The notes under the pieces: generated by a model
Databases searched by the model: none
What the model saw: only the letters and a program-made list of their open reading frames with translations
What the model was told of the DNA's origin: nothing
Position numbers and translations under genes: made by a program
NCBI GenBank assembly: GCA_903923395.1
Contig: CAIXXM010000022.1
Span: 1 to 32,728 of the forward strand
Origin: an uncultured Acidobacteriia bacterium
Lineage (GTDB): Bacteria > Acidobacteriota > Terriglobia > Bryobacterales > Bryobacteraceae
Direction of reading: 5' to 3'
DNA length: 32,728 bases
In this document: in pieces, positions 21,619 to 25,565 of the stretch
Position numbering within the stretch: the first letter of the stretch is position 1
Layout of the letters: each line of letters opens with the position of its first letter

Positions 21619-22020
21619 ATGTCCCGGACCCGGTTGTCCGCAGCGATTTACCTCGTTCTGGTATTCGCCAGCGGTATTCTCGTAGGTGCAGCGGCGAACC
21701 GCCTTTACACCACAACCTCAGCCAGTGCCAACACTGCGCCCCGCACGCCGGACGAGTGGAAAAAGCGCTACCTGGAGCAGATGAAGAAGCGCCTCGGTGC
21801 TTCCGATGACCAGGTATCGAAGACTTCAGAGATCCTGGACAACACGCGCAAGCGCTTCGATGACGTGCACGCCCAGGAAAAGAAGCTGCATGATTCCATG
21901 TACGCCGAACAGGTCGACAAGATCAAATCCATTCTAACCCCCGCGCAGCAAACGGCCTTCGATGCCTGGCGTGCCGAACGCCAGAGAGAACGCGAAAAAG
22001 CCCAGAAGGCAAAGAAGTAA
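21619..22020 (+). CDS. Spy/CpxP-like periplasmic or membrane-anchored protein
   Basis: A 133-aa protein with an N-terminal hydrophobic segment (about 7-27, AAIYLVLVFASGILVGAAA) that is either a signal anchor or uncleaved leader. An all-helical, highly charged periplasmic region follows. The EWKKRYLEQMKKRLGASDDQ segment and ILTPAQQTAFDAWRAER resemble the LTxxQ pattern of the Spy/CpxP/heavy-metal-resistor family, whose members act as periplasmic chaperones or as sensors that control an envelope stress pathway. It starts 5 bases after the anti-sigma-like gene, so the three genes form one operon that ends at the terminator at 22040-22069. The family link is by motif only. Confidence 0.75.
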   Translation: MSRTRLSAAIYLVLVFASGILVGAAANRLYTTTSASANTAPRTPDEWKKRYLEQMKKRLGASDDQVSKTSEILDNTRKRFDDVHAQEKKLHDSMYAEQVDKIKSILTPAQQTAFDAWRAERQREREKAQKAKK

Positions 22021-22039
22021 AAGCCGCTCACCGGAAATG

Positions 22040-22069
22040 AAAAAGGCCACCCTCGCGGGTGGCCTTTTT
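22040..22069. terminator. Bidirectional intrinsic terminator between convergent genes
   Basis: AAAAA-GGCCACCC (22040-22052) pairs with GGGTGGCC-TTTTT (22057-22069) around a four-base loop. With A and T tracts on both sides the hairpin works on either strand, ending the sigma operon on + and rpmE on -. Confidence 0.93.
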
Positions 22070-22091
22070 CGTATTGTGCTTGTCTGCGGAG

Positions 22092-22331
22092 TTATGACTT
22101 CGCAGCGATCTTTTCGAGCTTGGCGGCACGGTGGGCGGCGAAGCGCTTCTCAAAGCGGTCCACGCGTCCGGCGGTGTCAATGAGTTTCTGTTTGCCGGTG
22201 AAGAACGGATGGCAATTGGAGCAAATTTCTACGCGGATGTCGCCCTTGTGGGTGGAGCGCGTTGAAAACACGTTCGTACACGCACAAATGACTTTCACTT
22301 CGTTGTAGGCAGGGTGGATTCCGGGTTTCAT
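22092..22331 (-). CDS. rpmE: 50S ribosomal protein bL31 (zinc-binding type)
   Basis: A 79-aa ribosomal protein that bridges the 50S and 30S subunits. It starts [12 protein letters not shown] and contains [13 protein letters not shown], both hallmarks of bL31. Cys16, Cys18, Cys37 and Cys40 form the zinc site, so this is the Cys-plus form. The C-terminal 25 residues ([23 protein letters not shown]) are a basic helix typical of longer L31 versions. The open frame extends to 22370, but ATG 22331, with AAAGG 8 bases before it, is the proper start. A structured transcription unit ending in a terminator lies 49 bases upstream. A weak promoter-like TTGAAT-15-TAAGAT occurs in that gap, so rpmE may be expressed by read-through, by its own promoter, or both. 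Confidence 0.96.
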
Positions 22332-22379
22332 TACAAGGCCTTTCAGGAACTTCGATCTTACCACATTCATTACGGATTC

Positions 22380-22430
22380 AAAAATGCAAAGCCCCCCTGA
22401 AGCCGCGCGCGACGGCTTGCAGGAGGGCTT
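22380..22430 (-). terminator. Terminator hairpin before rpmE
   Basis: On the minus strand a 17-bp stem with one bulged C pairs 22413-22430 with 22389-22405 around a 7-base loop. TTTTT (22380-22384) follows after TGCA. The hairpin is very stable, but the T tract starts four bases late. On the plus strand the same hairpin is followed by CTTTTA, so weak activity there is possible. Confidence 0.7.
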
Positions 22431-22563
22431 GCCTTTTACTACTTACTATTGCTTCGCCTTTAACATCTCTGAGGCGTTGCTCTCGTCTCAACGAGGCAGC
22501 CGGTCCACAGGAACGCGACCCCGCCACTGATAGCGGGCATCTTCAGCTTTTACAGCAGTCGAC

Positions 22564-22605
22564 TCAACAGTCGGCCACCTCGTTGGATTTACTGCCAGGA
22601 TTCAT
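22564..22605 (-). CDS. 13-codon candidate leader ORF
   Basis: ATG 22605 opens the frame MNPGSKSNEVADC and then a TGA stop. It is preceded by AAGGAGGTGG (22614-22623), nearly the full complement of the 16S rRNA 3' end, with 11 bases between GGAGG and ATG. Codons 7-12 lie in the 5' strand of the 14-bp helix, so a translating ribosome would melt that helix. The peptide ends in Cys directly before the stop. Such an arrangement resembles leader peptides used in attenuation, but translation is unproven. Confidence 0.4.
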   Translation of the reverse strand: MNPGSKSNEVADC

Positions 22606-22639
22606 CTTCTGGACCACCTCCTTCTTCAGTGATACCTAG

Positions 22640-22668
22640 AAGGTACGCCCGATTCACGCGGTTGTCAA
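22640..22668 (-). promoter_or_regulatory. Sigma-70 type promoter of the 250-nt RNA
   Basis: On the minus strand, TTGACA (22663-22668) is a perfect -35 box. It is followed after exactly 17 bases by TACCTT (22640-22645), a 3/6 match to the -10 consensus. Transcription would start near 22633. The -35 box lies directly after the stop codon of the TPR lipoprotein gene. Confidence 0.6.
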
Positions 22669-22672
22669 ATCC

Positions 22673-24958
22673 CTATTTCTTGCCCTCAAACAACGCCGCT
22701 ACTTCCTGCCTTGCAGGAGCCTGTGGAGCCTGTTTCACCCCAGCCTCATACTCCGTTCTGGCCCGGGCCGCACTGCCTGTTTTCAGGAACGCCGCCGCCA
22801 GATGGTAATGCGCCGTGGGGCGGTCCATCAGTCGCAAAGACGTTTCCAGGTGGGGCAGGGCAGCCTCATACTTGCCTGCGCGGAAGTAAGTCCACCCCAG
22901 GGTATCCGCTGCCGCCGGATTGTTTGGTGCAGCCGCCATGGCCTTCTGCGCCCAGAACAGAGCATCGTCATACTTCTTCTGCTTCGAGGCCAGCAGTTCC
23001 GCCAGATTATTCATCGCGTTCACGTTCTCCGGCTCCATCTGCATCACCCGCAGATATTGCTTGATCGCAGCTTCCGCGTCACCCTTCCGGATCGCAATAT
23101 CAGCCAGCAGCATTCTCGCCCGGCCGTTATCACGCGTCTTGATCAGCTCACTCAACCGCTGCTCCGCTTTGGGTGCCGCATTCTCCGCCAGATCCATTTG
23201 CGCCAGATCCAACTCGGCAGTGACCAAATCGCCCGCCTTCTTCGCCGCTTCCAGTTCGGAACGCGCCCCAGCCTTATCCCCTGTCGCCACCAACTGCCCG
23301 GCCAGAGTAATATGCAACTGCACGGACTGCGGATTCTTCCCCACCGCTTCCCGCAACATCGCGATGAACTTCGGCGTATCTTTCTGCTCCCGCATCACCT
23401 CGCCCAGCAAACCCAGCACCCCGGGCTCCGAAGGCGAAATCGCGAACGCCATTTCGAGTGACTTCCGCGCCCCGGCAATATCCTTCGCTCTACCCTTCAA
23501 AATTGCGTCCTGATAGAGGAAACCCGGCGACTTGAGGATCGCCAAACAAGCATCCACATCTTTCCTGGCCTGTTCGGTATCGCCCTTCGCCAGCAGCGCC
23601 GCATTGTGGTAGTAGCGGTATTCCAGAGAAACCTTCTCGTTCGGTGTCGCCTGCTCCAGCGTTTCCAGTGCCGCTTCCGGCTTGCCCGCAGCCACCAGCA
23701 ACTGCGCCAGTTCCAACCGCGCGATGAAGAAGCGCGGATTGTACTTCAGCGCTTCGGCCAGCAAATCACCCTGCCGGACCGTCTCCCGGCGTGCCGCAAA
23801 GATCCGCGACTGCTGGTAACTCAGCGGCGCAGAGAATGCCTTCATGTCCAGCAACTGCTTCACATCCTTGCTGGCCGCATCCAGTTTGCCCGCATCGATT
23901 TCCAGAGACACGCGCATCAGCAGCGCCCGCGGGTCCTTCTTGTTCTTATCGAGCGTGCCCTCAAGCACCGCTTCAGCCTCCTTCTTCTTGCCGGAGGTAA
24001 TCAGCGTCTCGGCATACTCATTCCGGACGTCGGCATCATCTTTGTGCTCCTGCAGCACGCGTTCATATTCCTTGATGCCGGGTTCAATCTTCTTTTCCGC
24101 GAACAACATGCGCGCGTAGGCGGTCCAAAGCTGCTTGCCGGGGAGTTTCGAAAGTCCCTTGGTGGTCTCTTCCGCACCGGCCGTGTTGCCGGTCATCAAC
24201 TGCCGCCGCAACTGCAACTGCATCGCCGGCAGGAAATCCTTCTTCAGAGACAGCGCCCGCTGGATTTCCGCATCAGCCCCCGCCGGATCTTTCGTTGCCA
24301 GTTCCACTTGCGCCAGCAAAACCGCCGCTTCAGGGGATTTCGGCAGCAGCTCGGTCATCCGTTTCGATACTTTCCTGGCGTCGTCCACATTGCCCCTGGA
24401 GGCGTAGTACTGCACGATCGCTGTCGCCGCCCGGTTCGCGCTGTCCGGCGCTTTTCCAGAGGCCGTCTCCAGCAGTTTGACTGCCTCATCCGGCTTGCCC
24501 TGTTCCGCTGCCGCAACTGCAAGCGCTGCTGTCGCTTCTCCATCGCCGGGGTGGCTCGCCAGATAATCCTCAATCGCTTTCTTGGCGTCCTCCACCTGCA
24601 ACACGTCATTGCTGAACACCCGCAGCAGCGCGATCTGATACCGCGTACCCAGGTGGTTCGGCACAATCTTCAGCGTCGCCTGAAAGGTCTGGAATGCATC
24701 CGGTACCGCGCCAGCCTTCAGGTAGGTCATCCCCAGTTGATAGCGGGGCTCCGGGTCCTTCGGCATATTCTGACTGGCAATCTTGTACTCAATGACGGCT
24801 TTCTTGTATTCCTTCTTGTCCACATAGGCTTTCGCCTTGTTCATGTGGTCCGCCTCGGCCTCCTGCGGTGTCTTTGAGCAGCCGGTGAGCACCAGTGACA
24901 GCCCTGCGAGTACACTTATTGCCGTTGTTCCTGCCAGTGGCAGTTTGAATTTGTTCAT
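22673..24958 (-). CDS. Large TPR-repeat lipoprotein
   Basis: A 761-aa lipoprotein. Its signal peptide ends in the lipobox LTGC with Cys27 as the lipid-carrying residue, so it is anchored to a membrane facing the periplasm. The rest is some twenty tetratricopeptide-like repeats, for example KKAVIEYKIASQNMPKDPEPRYQLG and ADTLGWTYFRAGKYEAALPHLETSL. No enzymatic domain is visible. The architecture resembles the PrsT-type TPR proteins of exosortase/exopolysaccharide loci, but no such genes are nearby, so that label is not used. The open frame reaches back to ATG 25021, overlapping the preceding gene; ATG 24958 gives a normal lipoprotein signal and is preferred, although no clear Shine-Dalgarno precedes it. 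It is probably co-transcribed with the upstream zinc-ribbon gene. Confidence 0.87.
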   Translation of the reverse strand: MNKFKLPLAGTTAISVLAGLSLVLTGCSKTPQEAEADHMNKAKAYVDKKEYKKAVIEYKIASQNMPKDPEPRYQLGMTYLKAGAVPDAFQTFQATLKIVPNHLGTRYQIALLRVFSNDVLQVEDAKKAIEDYLASHPGDGEATAALAVAAAEQGKPDEAVKLLETASGKAPDSANRAATAIVQYYASRGNVDDARKVSKRMTELLPKSPEAAVLLAQVELATKDPAGADAEIQRALSLKKDFLPAMQLQLRRQLMTGNTAGAEETTKGLSKLPGKQLWTAYARMLFAEKKIEPGIKEYERVLQEHKDDADVRNEYAETLITSGKKKEAEAVLEGTLDKNKKDPRALLMRVSLEIDAGKLDAASKDVKQLLDMKAFSAPLSYQQSRIFAARRETVRQGDLLAEALKYNPRFFIARLELAQLLVAAGKPEAALETLEQATPNEKVSLEYRYYHNAALLAKGDTEQARKDVDACLAILKSPGFLYQDAILKGRAKDIAGARKSLEMAFAISPSEPGVLGLLGEVMREQKDTPKFIAMLREAVGKNPQSVQLHITLAGQLVATGDKAGARSELEAAKKAGDLVTAELDLAQMDLAENAAPKAEQRLSELIKTRDNGRARMLLADIAIRKGDAEAAIKQYLRVMQMEPENVNAMNNLAELLASKQKKYDDALFWAQKAMAAAPNNPAAADTLGWTYFRAGKYEAALPHLETSLRLMDRPTAHYHLAAAFLKTGSAARARTEYEAGVKQAPQAPARQEVAALFEGKK

Positions 24959-24998
24959 TGCTGAATTGGTTTGCCGCAAGCGAGTCACCTTGGATTCC

Positions 24999-25565
24999 TT
25001 AACGTGTTGTATAGCTGGCATCGATCATCGCCAGGATCACTGACGGATCCAGGCCTTCCTTGCGCAGTTCAATGACTGAGGCTGCACTGACATCAAAGTC
25101 CGCATTCGACGTGCGGATCATCTGGAGAATAATGTTCACCGGCACCTGTGCCCGCCACAACTGGATCACCGCCTTGTTGTCCAGCGAGGAGCGCGGCCGC
25201 CGCGTCATCATCTTTTCGAACGCAGACAACTGGCCGCCGCTCATGGCAGACCGTGCGCGCGCCAGGGATTCCGCATCATCCCCGCCGCCACCTGCCGAAT
25301 CACCGCTGCGGAAGGGAAACGGATGCGATTGCAGGTAATACCCGCCGCCGGCAATGATCAGCAGCAGCAGGATCTGCACCACATTGATGAAGCCAAACCG
25401 GATGGAACTCTGGCGGTTCGAGCACTTCTTGCAACGGTAGCGCTGGCGGGCGAACAACAAATCGGGCAGCAGCCGCTCAAGCGTACGCAGGTCAGTGGAA
25501 CCGCACTTCCGGCACGCTCTCTTGTCCAATTTCGGATCTGCTTCCAACTCGCCCGTCGCTTGCAT
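24999..25565 (-). CDS. Zinc-ribbon single-TM protein of unknown function
   Basis: A 188-aa protein with three parts. An N-terminal zinc ribbon has Cys18/Cys21 (CRKC) and Cys45/Cys48 (CKKC). One membrane helix spans about 58-75 (GFINVVQILLLLIIAGGGYYL). A helical C-terminal domain (about 110-188) shows the two-repeat pattern WRAQVPVNIILQMIRTSNADFD and IELRKEGLDPSVILAMIDA, seen in many acidobacterial proteins of unknown role. The open frame begins at 25619, but GGAGAGG lies 7 bases before ATG 25565, which fixes the start. The zinc ribbon should be cytosolic and the C-terminal domain periplasmic. The TPR lipoprotein gene follows, so the pair may act together at the envelope. Confidence 0.75.
   Translation of the reverse strand: MQATGELEADPKLDKRACRKCGSTDLRTLERLLPDLLFARQRYRCKKCSNRQSSIRFGFINVVQILLLLIIAGGGYYLQSHPFPFRSGDSAGGGGDDAESLARARSAMSGGQLSAFEKMMTRRPRSSLDNKAVIQLWRAQVPVNIILQMIRTSNADFDVSAASVIELRKEGLDPSVILAMIDASYTTR

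Follow-up and report, generated by a model that had tools for sequence, protein, structure and literature searches.

What is encoded between the TPR gene at 22673-25021 and rpmE in this acidobacterial genome? The region lies within the window, by which we mean the whole 32,728-nucleotide stretch of DNA that was analyzed, and the features of the RNA locus, like rpmE itself, are on its minus strand. A first-pass annotation had proposed a transcription unit here, downstream of the TPR gene. Its promoter is present in the sequence exactly as described: a −35 hexamer TTGACA (22663-22668), a 17-nt spacer and a −10 hexamer TACCTT (22640-22645), with a predicted start near 22633. The hairpin and T tract proposed to end the transcript near 22380 are likewise recovered as an intrinsic terminator at 22380-22431, and rpmE does start 49 nt beyond it, at 22331. 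Together with the fold and BLAST matches in the family, these signals predict an RNA of about 254 nt (22380-22633), in which the fold also places a small 3′ hairpin (GCCUC...GGC, 22455-22478). Since a generic promoter scan of the window listed no site at 22640-22668, the case for the promoter rests on relatives, where TTGAC[AGT] is found upstream at about the same distance as in the window in 111 of 114 family loci, versus 24 of 4605 control windows. The fold of the 254-nt RNA (-100.2 kcal/mol, z = -2.93; 2 of 200 shuffles equally good) is significantly, if modestly, more stable than that of shuffled sequence.

The region is widely conserved. Within the genus, BLAST matches occur in 12 of 19 genomes, counting the window's own; within the family, they occur in 153 of 200, representing 67 of 76 genera, with some of the matches being short. 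A covariance model of the window's family, R1, matches 13 of the 19 genus genomes; the six without an R1 match include near-complete assemblies, so the RNA can be lost. A set of 115 family loci was read, comprising 35 from the genus and family searches and 80 fetched from 87 listed extra regions. The window's genome has one copy by BLAST, and a repeated element was rejected. One other genome has two differing copies, each beside an rpmE; that assembly has 6% contamination, and the two copies are either a paralogue pair or the product of a mixed bin. In another locus (L007), the 5′ end of the RNA is partially duplicated in tandem directly upstream of the Shine-Dalgarno site, with TATCACTGA repeated.

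What does the RNA contain? The first-pass annotation did not mention a short ORF (22564-22605) or the Shine-Dalgarno site that precedes it. The ORF has 13 codons, MNPGSKSNEVADC-stop, in a frame that is kept in the family. The Shine-Dalgarno element, AAGGAGGTGGTCCAG (22609-22623), can pair with the 3′ end of family 16S rRNA with one G-U. Specifically, the 16S rRNA of two family genomes ends in CUGGAUCACCUCCUUUCU, and all 15 nt of the window's AAGGAGGUGGUCCAG pair with it, one of them as G-U; for the family consensus the pairing is 18 nt. No such 16S 3′ end is shown in the window's own assembly. Within the ORF is a second, Shine-Dalgarno-like sequence, GAGGTG (22576-22581), 9 nt before the stop codon, a distance that is fixed in relatives. 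All 115 family loci have the Shine-Dalgarno element, an ATG 10-16 nt after GGAGGT and an ORF of 12-20 codons; a distance of 10-16 nt is longer than usual for Shine-Dalgarno sites. In 113 of the 114 loci that could be measured, the spacing between ATG and GAGGTG, or a variant of it, is divisible by three, L099 being the exception, and 108 of 115 loci have the exact GAGGTG 9 nt upstream of the stop. The stop codons themselves vary (TGA in 68 loci, TAA in 34, TAG in 13). The peptide ends in Glu-Val-x-x-x-stop in 113 of 115 loci, the others ending in KVADC and, in L099, RGVLS, and its N-terminal half is largely variable.

We take length variation that keeps the frame as the mark of translation; conserved last codons alone are insufficient because these codons are also paired, and the most conserved residues coincide with the helix P2. 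Their conservation can therefore stem from P2 alone, with no role for the peptide itself. From these sequence comparisons we infer that the ORF is translated in this organism, and that the RNA is probably both structural and coding. In a separate acidobacterial family typified by L124 (about 1500-1592), and also including L128, L135, L136 and L137, the ORF unit is doubled (SEV...TREV) and looks as if GAGGTG had been duplicated.

The structural part of the RNA is dominated by P2. A helix between 22572-22585 and 22489-22502 had been predicted from the window alone and is exact, with 14 continuous pairs, two of them G-U. What had gone unnoticed is that it is built on the last codons of the ORF, its 5′ arm lying within the reading frame. 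Covariation had been suggested as a test of this helix, and P2 does covary in the family, with 8 of 13 counted pairs changed on both sides. Four further pairings are predicted. First, a hairpin, P5 (22518-22538), has 93.7% of cells paired in the family alignment and 4 of 7 pairs changed on both sides. Second, the P5 loop UCAGUG (22525-22530) pairs with CACUGA near the 5′ end (22626-22631), forming a pseudoknot-type pairing, PKa (94.8% of cells paired), whose last pair is A-U in 67 sequences and G-C in 18. Third, PKb joins GGUCCA (22610-22615), in the Shine-Dalgarno element, to UGGACC (22502-22507); it is seen in the sequence and the family alignment and is mostly invariant, with little covariation. 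Fourth, P3 (22561-22572), a small hairpin whose loop contains or adjoins the stop codon, is a weak candidate in the family, with 59.9% of cells paired. P2, PKa and PKb cross one another, and so would form either a compact pseudoknot or alternative pairings.

These values come from an alignment, A2, of 97 of the 115 family loci (96 distinct), tested against a structure drawn from one family member (L017) that comprises P2, P3, P5 and the two crossing pairings. The 18 loci left out were duplicate, truncated or misaligned after the ORF, the out-of-frame L099 among them, and their exclusion favours the covariation counts. Both-sided changes are seen at 18 of 36 pairs (10.6 in shuffles) and in 193 cells versus 63.0 in shuffles, and sliding the partners lowers the share of paired cells from 87.7% to 49.5% or less. 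RNAalifold on A2 returns 16 pairs only. A 3′ GGYUAYC element that could pair with the ORF or the Shine-Dalgarno site was dropped as a candidate; it occurs in 47 of 113 family loci and is missing from the window.

Is this RNA new? The first-pass annotation suggested a new small RNA, and this holds for the window itself, where an Rfam search at gathering scores gives no match, but not for its relatives, which belong to the Rfam family Ms_IGR-5 (RF02471), an actinobacterial sRNA. The source report of Ms_IGR-5 is said to be that of Li and colleagues in RNA in 2013. The RF02471 model does not match the window's RNA at E values up to 1 and finds nothing in the window's whole genome or in 14 control genomes, nor does it match two family members (L017 and L033) at its gathering score of 45 bits. 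Because the window fails this score, its RNA is not filed under RF02471. Among 14 further loci tested, eight reach the cut-off, with up to 128 bits over the whole model; L167, L168, L174, L187, L206 and L208 are below it. The acidobacterial locus L124 scores 44.8 bits, just short of the cut-off, and is also matched by R1 (1.0e-5), whereas other acidobacterial loci score 22-31 bits or nothing. Homology can thus be traced through intermediates, from R1 to L124 to RF02471, and from a second model, R2, to the window, the latter step being partly circular. The window also has the 5′ ribosome-site element followed by a short ORF ending in Glu-Val-x-x-x-stop, features by which we, rather than Rfam, delimit the group. 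On the strength of the intermediates and the shared 5′ part, the window's RNA is a distant relative of Ms_IGR-5.

The likeness extends beyond the score. Ms_IGR-5 shares the window's 5′ AAGGAGGUGGUCC, and its consensus can be read as a 12-codon ORF that starts with UUG and ends in Glu-Val-Ala-Ala-Arg-stop; actinobacterial loci that match the model have ORFs of 12-13 codons. As in the window's RNA, structure follows the ORF, there is a terminator and the RNA is a unit of its own. There are also differences. The 3′ strand of P2 is unpaired in the Rfam consensus structure, unlike in the window's family, and PKa, PKb and the rpmE neighborhood are established in the window's family only. Another Rfam family, the Caulobacter sRNA CC2171 (RF01867), has a consensus with the 16S-complementary GAAAGGAGGUGAUCCAG near its 5′ end, as in the window's RNA, and scores 24.5 and 25.5 bits in two relatives (cut-off 75), but no Glu-Val ORF was seen in its consensus. 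A deeper relation between CC2171 and Ms_IGR-5 is possible. Matches to RefA9, Pxr, sobemovirus and CRISPR models were weak and were judged to be chance. 6S RNA and tmRNA were also set aside: RF00013 has no match in the window, and ARAGORN, which looks for a tRNA-like domain with a tag ORF, finds no tRNA or tmRNA there. A 6S RNA candidate is present on another contig of the window's genome (4966-5159; 32.4 bits, cut-off 46.4).

Ms_IGR-5 is listed as validated by RNA-seq in S. lividans (PMC8079986). In S. avermitilis it is listed as the transcription unit of an sRNA (PMC8780764), and in M. smegmatis it overlaps ncMSMEG15794c (PMC10454040); the accessible part of PMC3828370 deals with other mycobacterial sRNAs. 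According to a Ribo-seq study (PMC4974804), the homologues of MS_IGR-5 in M. abscessus and M. smegmatis carry significant ribosomal reads; the same text also finds reads on tRNAs and a large number of further non-coding RNAs, and considers coding potential difficult to judge. In the accessible portions of the literature searched, neither an ORF in Ms_IGR-5 nor a function for it was found described.

How far does the arrangement extend? Across the phylum, R1 matches 24 of 297 genomes, of which three belong to the family. Among the 21 matches outside the family, 15 show, by eye, the 5′ element and a short ORF; the remaining six (L121, L130, L134, L138, L139 and L140) lack them and are probably chance matches. 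When GTDB genomes were scanned for the combination of the Shine-Dalgarno element, ATG and GAGGTG, with neither a frame nor a stop codon being required, at least 119 stretches were obtained. Among the 119 matches listed, which overlap the family set in that they include Bryobacterales records (for example, L173 and L005), a stop codon lies exactly 9 nt after GAGGTG in 107. At the other in-frame offsets there are no stops at 0, 3, 6, 15 or 18 and one at 12. The 12 matches listed that lack the fixed distance include all three Planctomycetes records among them (L174, L234 and L261). When the first 80 of the at least 119 stretches were sorted, 62 fell outside the records resembling the window's family, and 54 of these have the stop. 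Most of the matches listed from outside Acidobacteriota are titled Actinobacteria in the wide sense, with peptides such as MIDLRTCEVSVR; the layout also fits a single record each titled Rokubacteria and Deltaproteobacteria.

A collection of 64 sequences from outside the family was chosen by requiring that an ORF contain GAGGT[GA] and that a stop codon follow closely, which makes their ORFs partly circular as evidence; the counts from the GTDB scan are free of this selection. Alignment A3 consists of 27 of the 64; model R2 holds 27 sequences, none of them titled Acidobacteriota and one with no phylum in its title. R2 matches a single place in the window's genome, exactly at the Shine-Dalgarno site and the ORF of the window's RNA, with 30 bits (E 1.8e-6 genome-wide), a match that is itself partly circular because the R2 sequences were found by a motif that the window also has.

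Is P2 also found outside the family? The end of the ORF, GGUGNNNNN, can pair there with a strand ending in ACC, often just before the terminator, and 45 of the 64 sequences reach 8 of 9 pairs, with 19 falling below. Own arms form 7.84 pairs on average and foreign arms 6.46, but the own arm beats every foreign arm in only 5 of 64 sequences, and some of the best sites are implausibly distant. In duplex energy, only 3 of 39 sequences have a real duplex matched by no more than 5 of 100 shuffles. In a cleaner test, the 3′ strand was chosen by a motif blind to the end of the ORF. This 3′ element is present in 63 of 107 of the matches listed, giving 28 distinct pairs, and 4.0 pairs form at 6 positions versus 3.38 after shuffling, with none of 2000 shuffles as high, a comparison in which relatedness was uncontrolled. 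For example, GGUGUCCGU can pair with ACGGACACC, and GGUGGUUGU with GCAACCACC. P2 is proven for the window's family only, and its presence in Ms_IGR-5 is probable.

We favor the reading that the locus encodes a stand-alone, translated and structured sRNA, distantly related to Ms_IGR-5, in which the ribosome and P2 are mutually exclusive, and give it a probability of roughly 60%. Conservation, frame-keeping, the fixed stop distance, covariation within the family and the promoter and terminator signals are demonstrated by comparison of sequences. The mechanism would work as follows. The RNA would be transcribed from its own promoter and ended at its own terminator. A 30S subunit would bind through the Shine-Dalgarno site, whose complementarity to the 16S 3′ end spans 15 nt in the window and 18 nt in the family consensus, and the ribosome would synthesize the 13-residue peptide. 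The last codons (GAG GUG GCC G) are also part of the 5′ arm of P2, so the helix would be incompatible with a ribosome elongating or terminating there. With the stop codon in the A site, GAGGUG lies 6 nt upstream of the P-site codon, which is an ordinary Shine-Dalgarno spacing, and a terminating ribosome may therefore be held there, with GAGGUG slowing its release. We infer both this holding of the ribosome and a two-state switch, in which ribosome supply or termination would determine whether the RNA is engaged by a ribosome or folded. Opening of P2 would free strands that could act in trans on other RNAs, which is a guess. There is a parallel in the internal Shine-Dalgarno element of prfB, likewise a Shine-Dalgarno-like hexamer in an ORF just upstream of a stop codon; that element is said to drive a frameshift with a 3-nt spacing, whereas in the window's RNA the P-site codon is 6 nt away and nothing implies a frameshift.

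There are alternatives. The one that survives best, although we consider it unlikely, is that this is a conventional trans-acting sRNA and that what looks like an ORF is a side effect of a segment used for base pairing. A promoter and terminator of its own, covarying helices and relatives catalogued as sRNAs would all be expected of such an RNA. A base-pairing segment does not explain why the ORF changes length in steps of three, keeping its frame, while the stop codons interchange, or why the stop distance is fixed across phyla, and the ribosomal reads on relatives reported in the accessible text of PMC4974804 also speak against it. Less probable again is a ribosome decoy, in which the long complement to the 16S 3′ end (15 of 15 nt with one G-U; 18 nt in the family consensus) ties up 30S subunits, for example during slow growth. 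The length of the pairing fits, but the kept frame and fixed stop distance would be needless, and a very high copy number would be required.

Could the RNA instead be a leader of rpmE? The first-pass annotation raised a conditional terminator, and in its fullest form this reading has bL31, or a ribosome bound to the ORF, deciding on read-through past the terminator into rpmE (22092-22331; Pfam Ribosomal_L31, 5.5e-33). A search with the window's L31 (tblastn) finds rpmE downstream of 91 of 115 family loci, whereas the upstream TPR gene, among 35 loci tested, was found only in the window's own. L31 leaders are also present in other phyla (PMC7247131, 2020). These motifs resemble the window's RNA in lying upstream of rpmE and, by the accessible text of that report, differ from it in that all five known are single hairpins, each confined to one phylum; its main text, as accessible, does not name Acidobacteria. 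Of the family loci, 111 hold enough sequence to tell, and in 20 of these, all with 962 nt or more downstream, rpmE is missing. The other four of the 24 rpmE-less loci (L044, L082, L085 and L103) end 131-531 nt past the site and are uninformative. In several of the rpmE-less loci, the longest downstream ORF, by mechanical ORF calls, is on the opposite strand. Outside the family, the same tblastn search, which has no positive control for other phyla, finds rpmE beside 0 of 70 loci. A terminator-like hairpin separates the RNA from rpmE in 86 of 91 loci, a count without a control. In the window, rpmE is preceded by an extended −10, TGGTAAGAT (22355-22363), and such a site is found in 82 of 91 loci versus 135 of 3020 control windows. 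The stem of the terminator varies, and no conserved antiterminator was noticed by eye.

The absence of rpmE from 20 loci, the terminator in between and rpmE's own extended −10 argue that the RNA is a separate gene, one that is kept adjacent to rpmE in much of the family. Conditional termination as a control of rpmE thus loses ground, and we would give it little chance; the constant one-transcript linkage expected of a bL31 leader is broken in 20 of 111 family loci and in all 70 outside. The independent RNA that had been offered as the alternative gains support: it has promoter and terminator signals of its own, its structure covaries, it is widely conserved and it persists where rpmE is missing.

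Other features lie nearby. In the window (22339-22347) and in many family loci, a CCTGAAAGG-like stretch is visible by eye in the short 5′ untranslated part of rpmE, and could be a small hairpin or a ribosome site. Between rpmE and the convergent ORF at 21619-22020 is a strong hairpin (22037-22072) flanked by a T run and, on the opposite side, by A's, perhaps a bidirectional terminator. The segment 20633-22020 holds, in a row, a gene for a sigma factor of the ECF type (Pfam Sigma70_r2 and r4_2), a 119-aa ORF with no Pfam match and a 133-aa ORF with none over the cut-off.

Finally, a micropeptide gene, with the 12-20 residue peptide as the product and the RNA merely its mRNA, would account for the very strong ribosome site and the conserved C-terminal Glu-Val, but is improbable given a mostly variable N-terminal half, best-conserved residues that coincide with P2 and a covarying structured RNA after the stop.

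What are the wider implications of a translated, structured sRNA? We suggest, tentatively and at less than even odds, that Ms_IGR-5 is more than a non-coding RNA of Actinobacteria and represents a single branch of an ancient, widespread kind of translated RNA that signals the state of ribosomes, marked by a near-perfect 16S-complementary start, a tiny ORF with its stop codon at a fixed distance behind an internal Shine-Dalgarno hexamer and a covarying helix, formed by the last codons and a strand further downstream, that closes only when there is no ribosome at the stop, with members in Actinobacteria and Acidobacteriota and single ones in Rokubacteria and Deltaproteobacteria. The same layout in distant phyla moves the question from the mRNA partners of an sRNA to the action of the ribosome on the RNA, a question that is open to test by mutants of the start, the stop and the helix. 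If the switch is true, the RNA would serve as a sensor for the supply of ribosomes or for termination.
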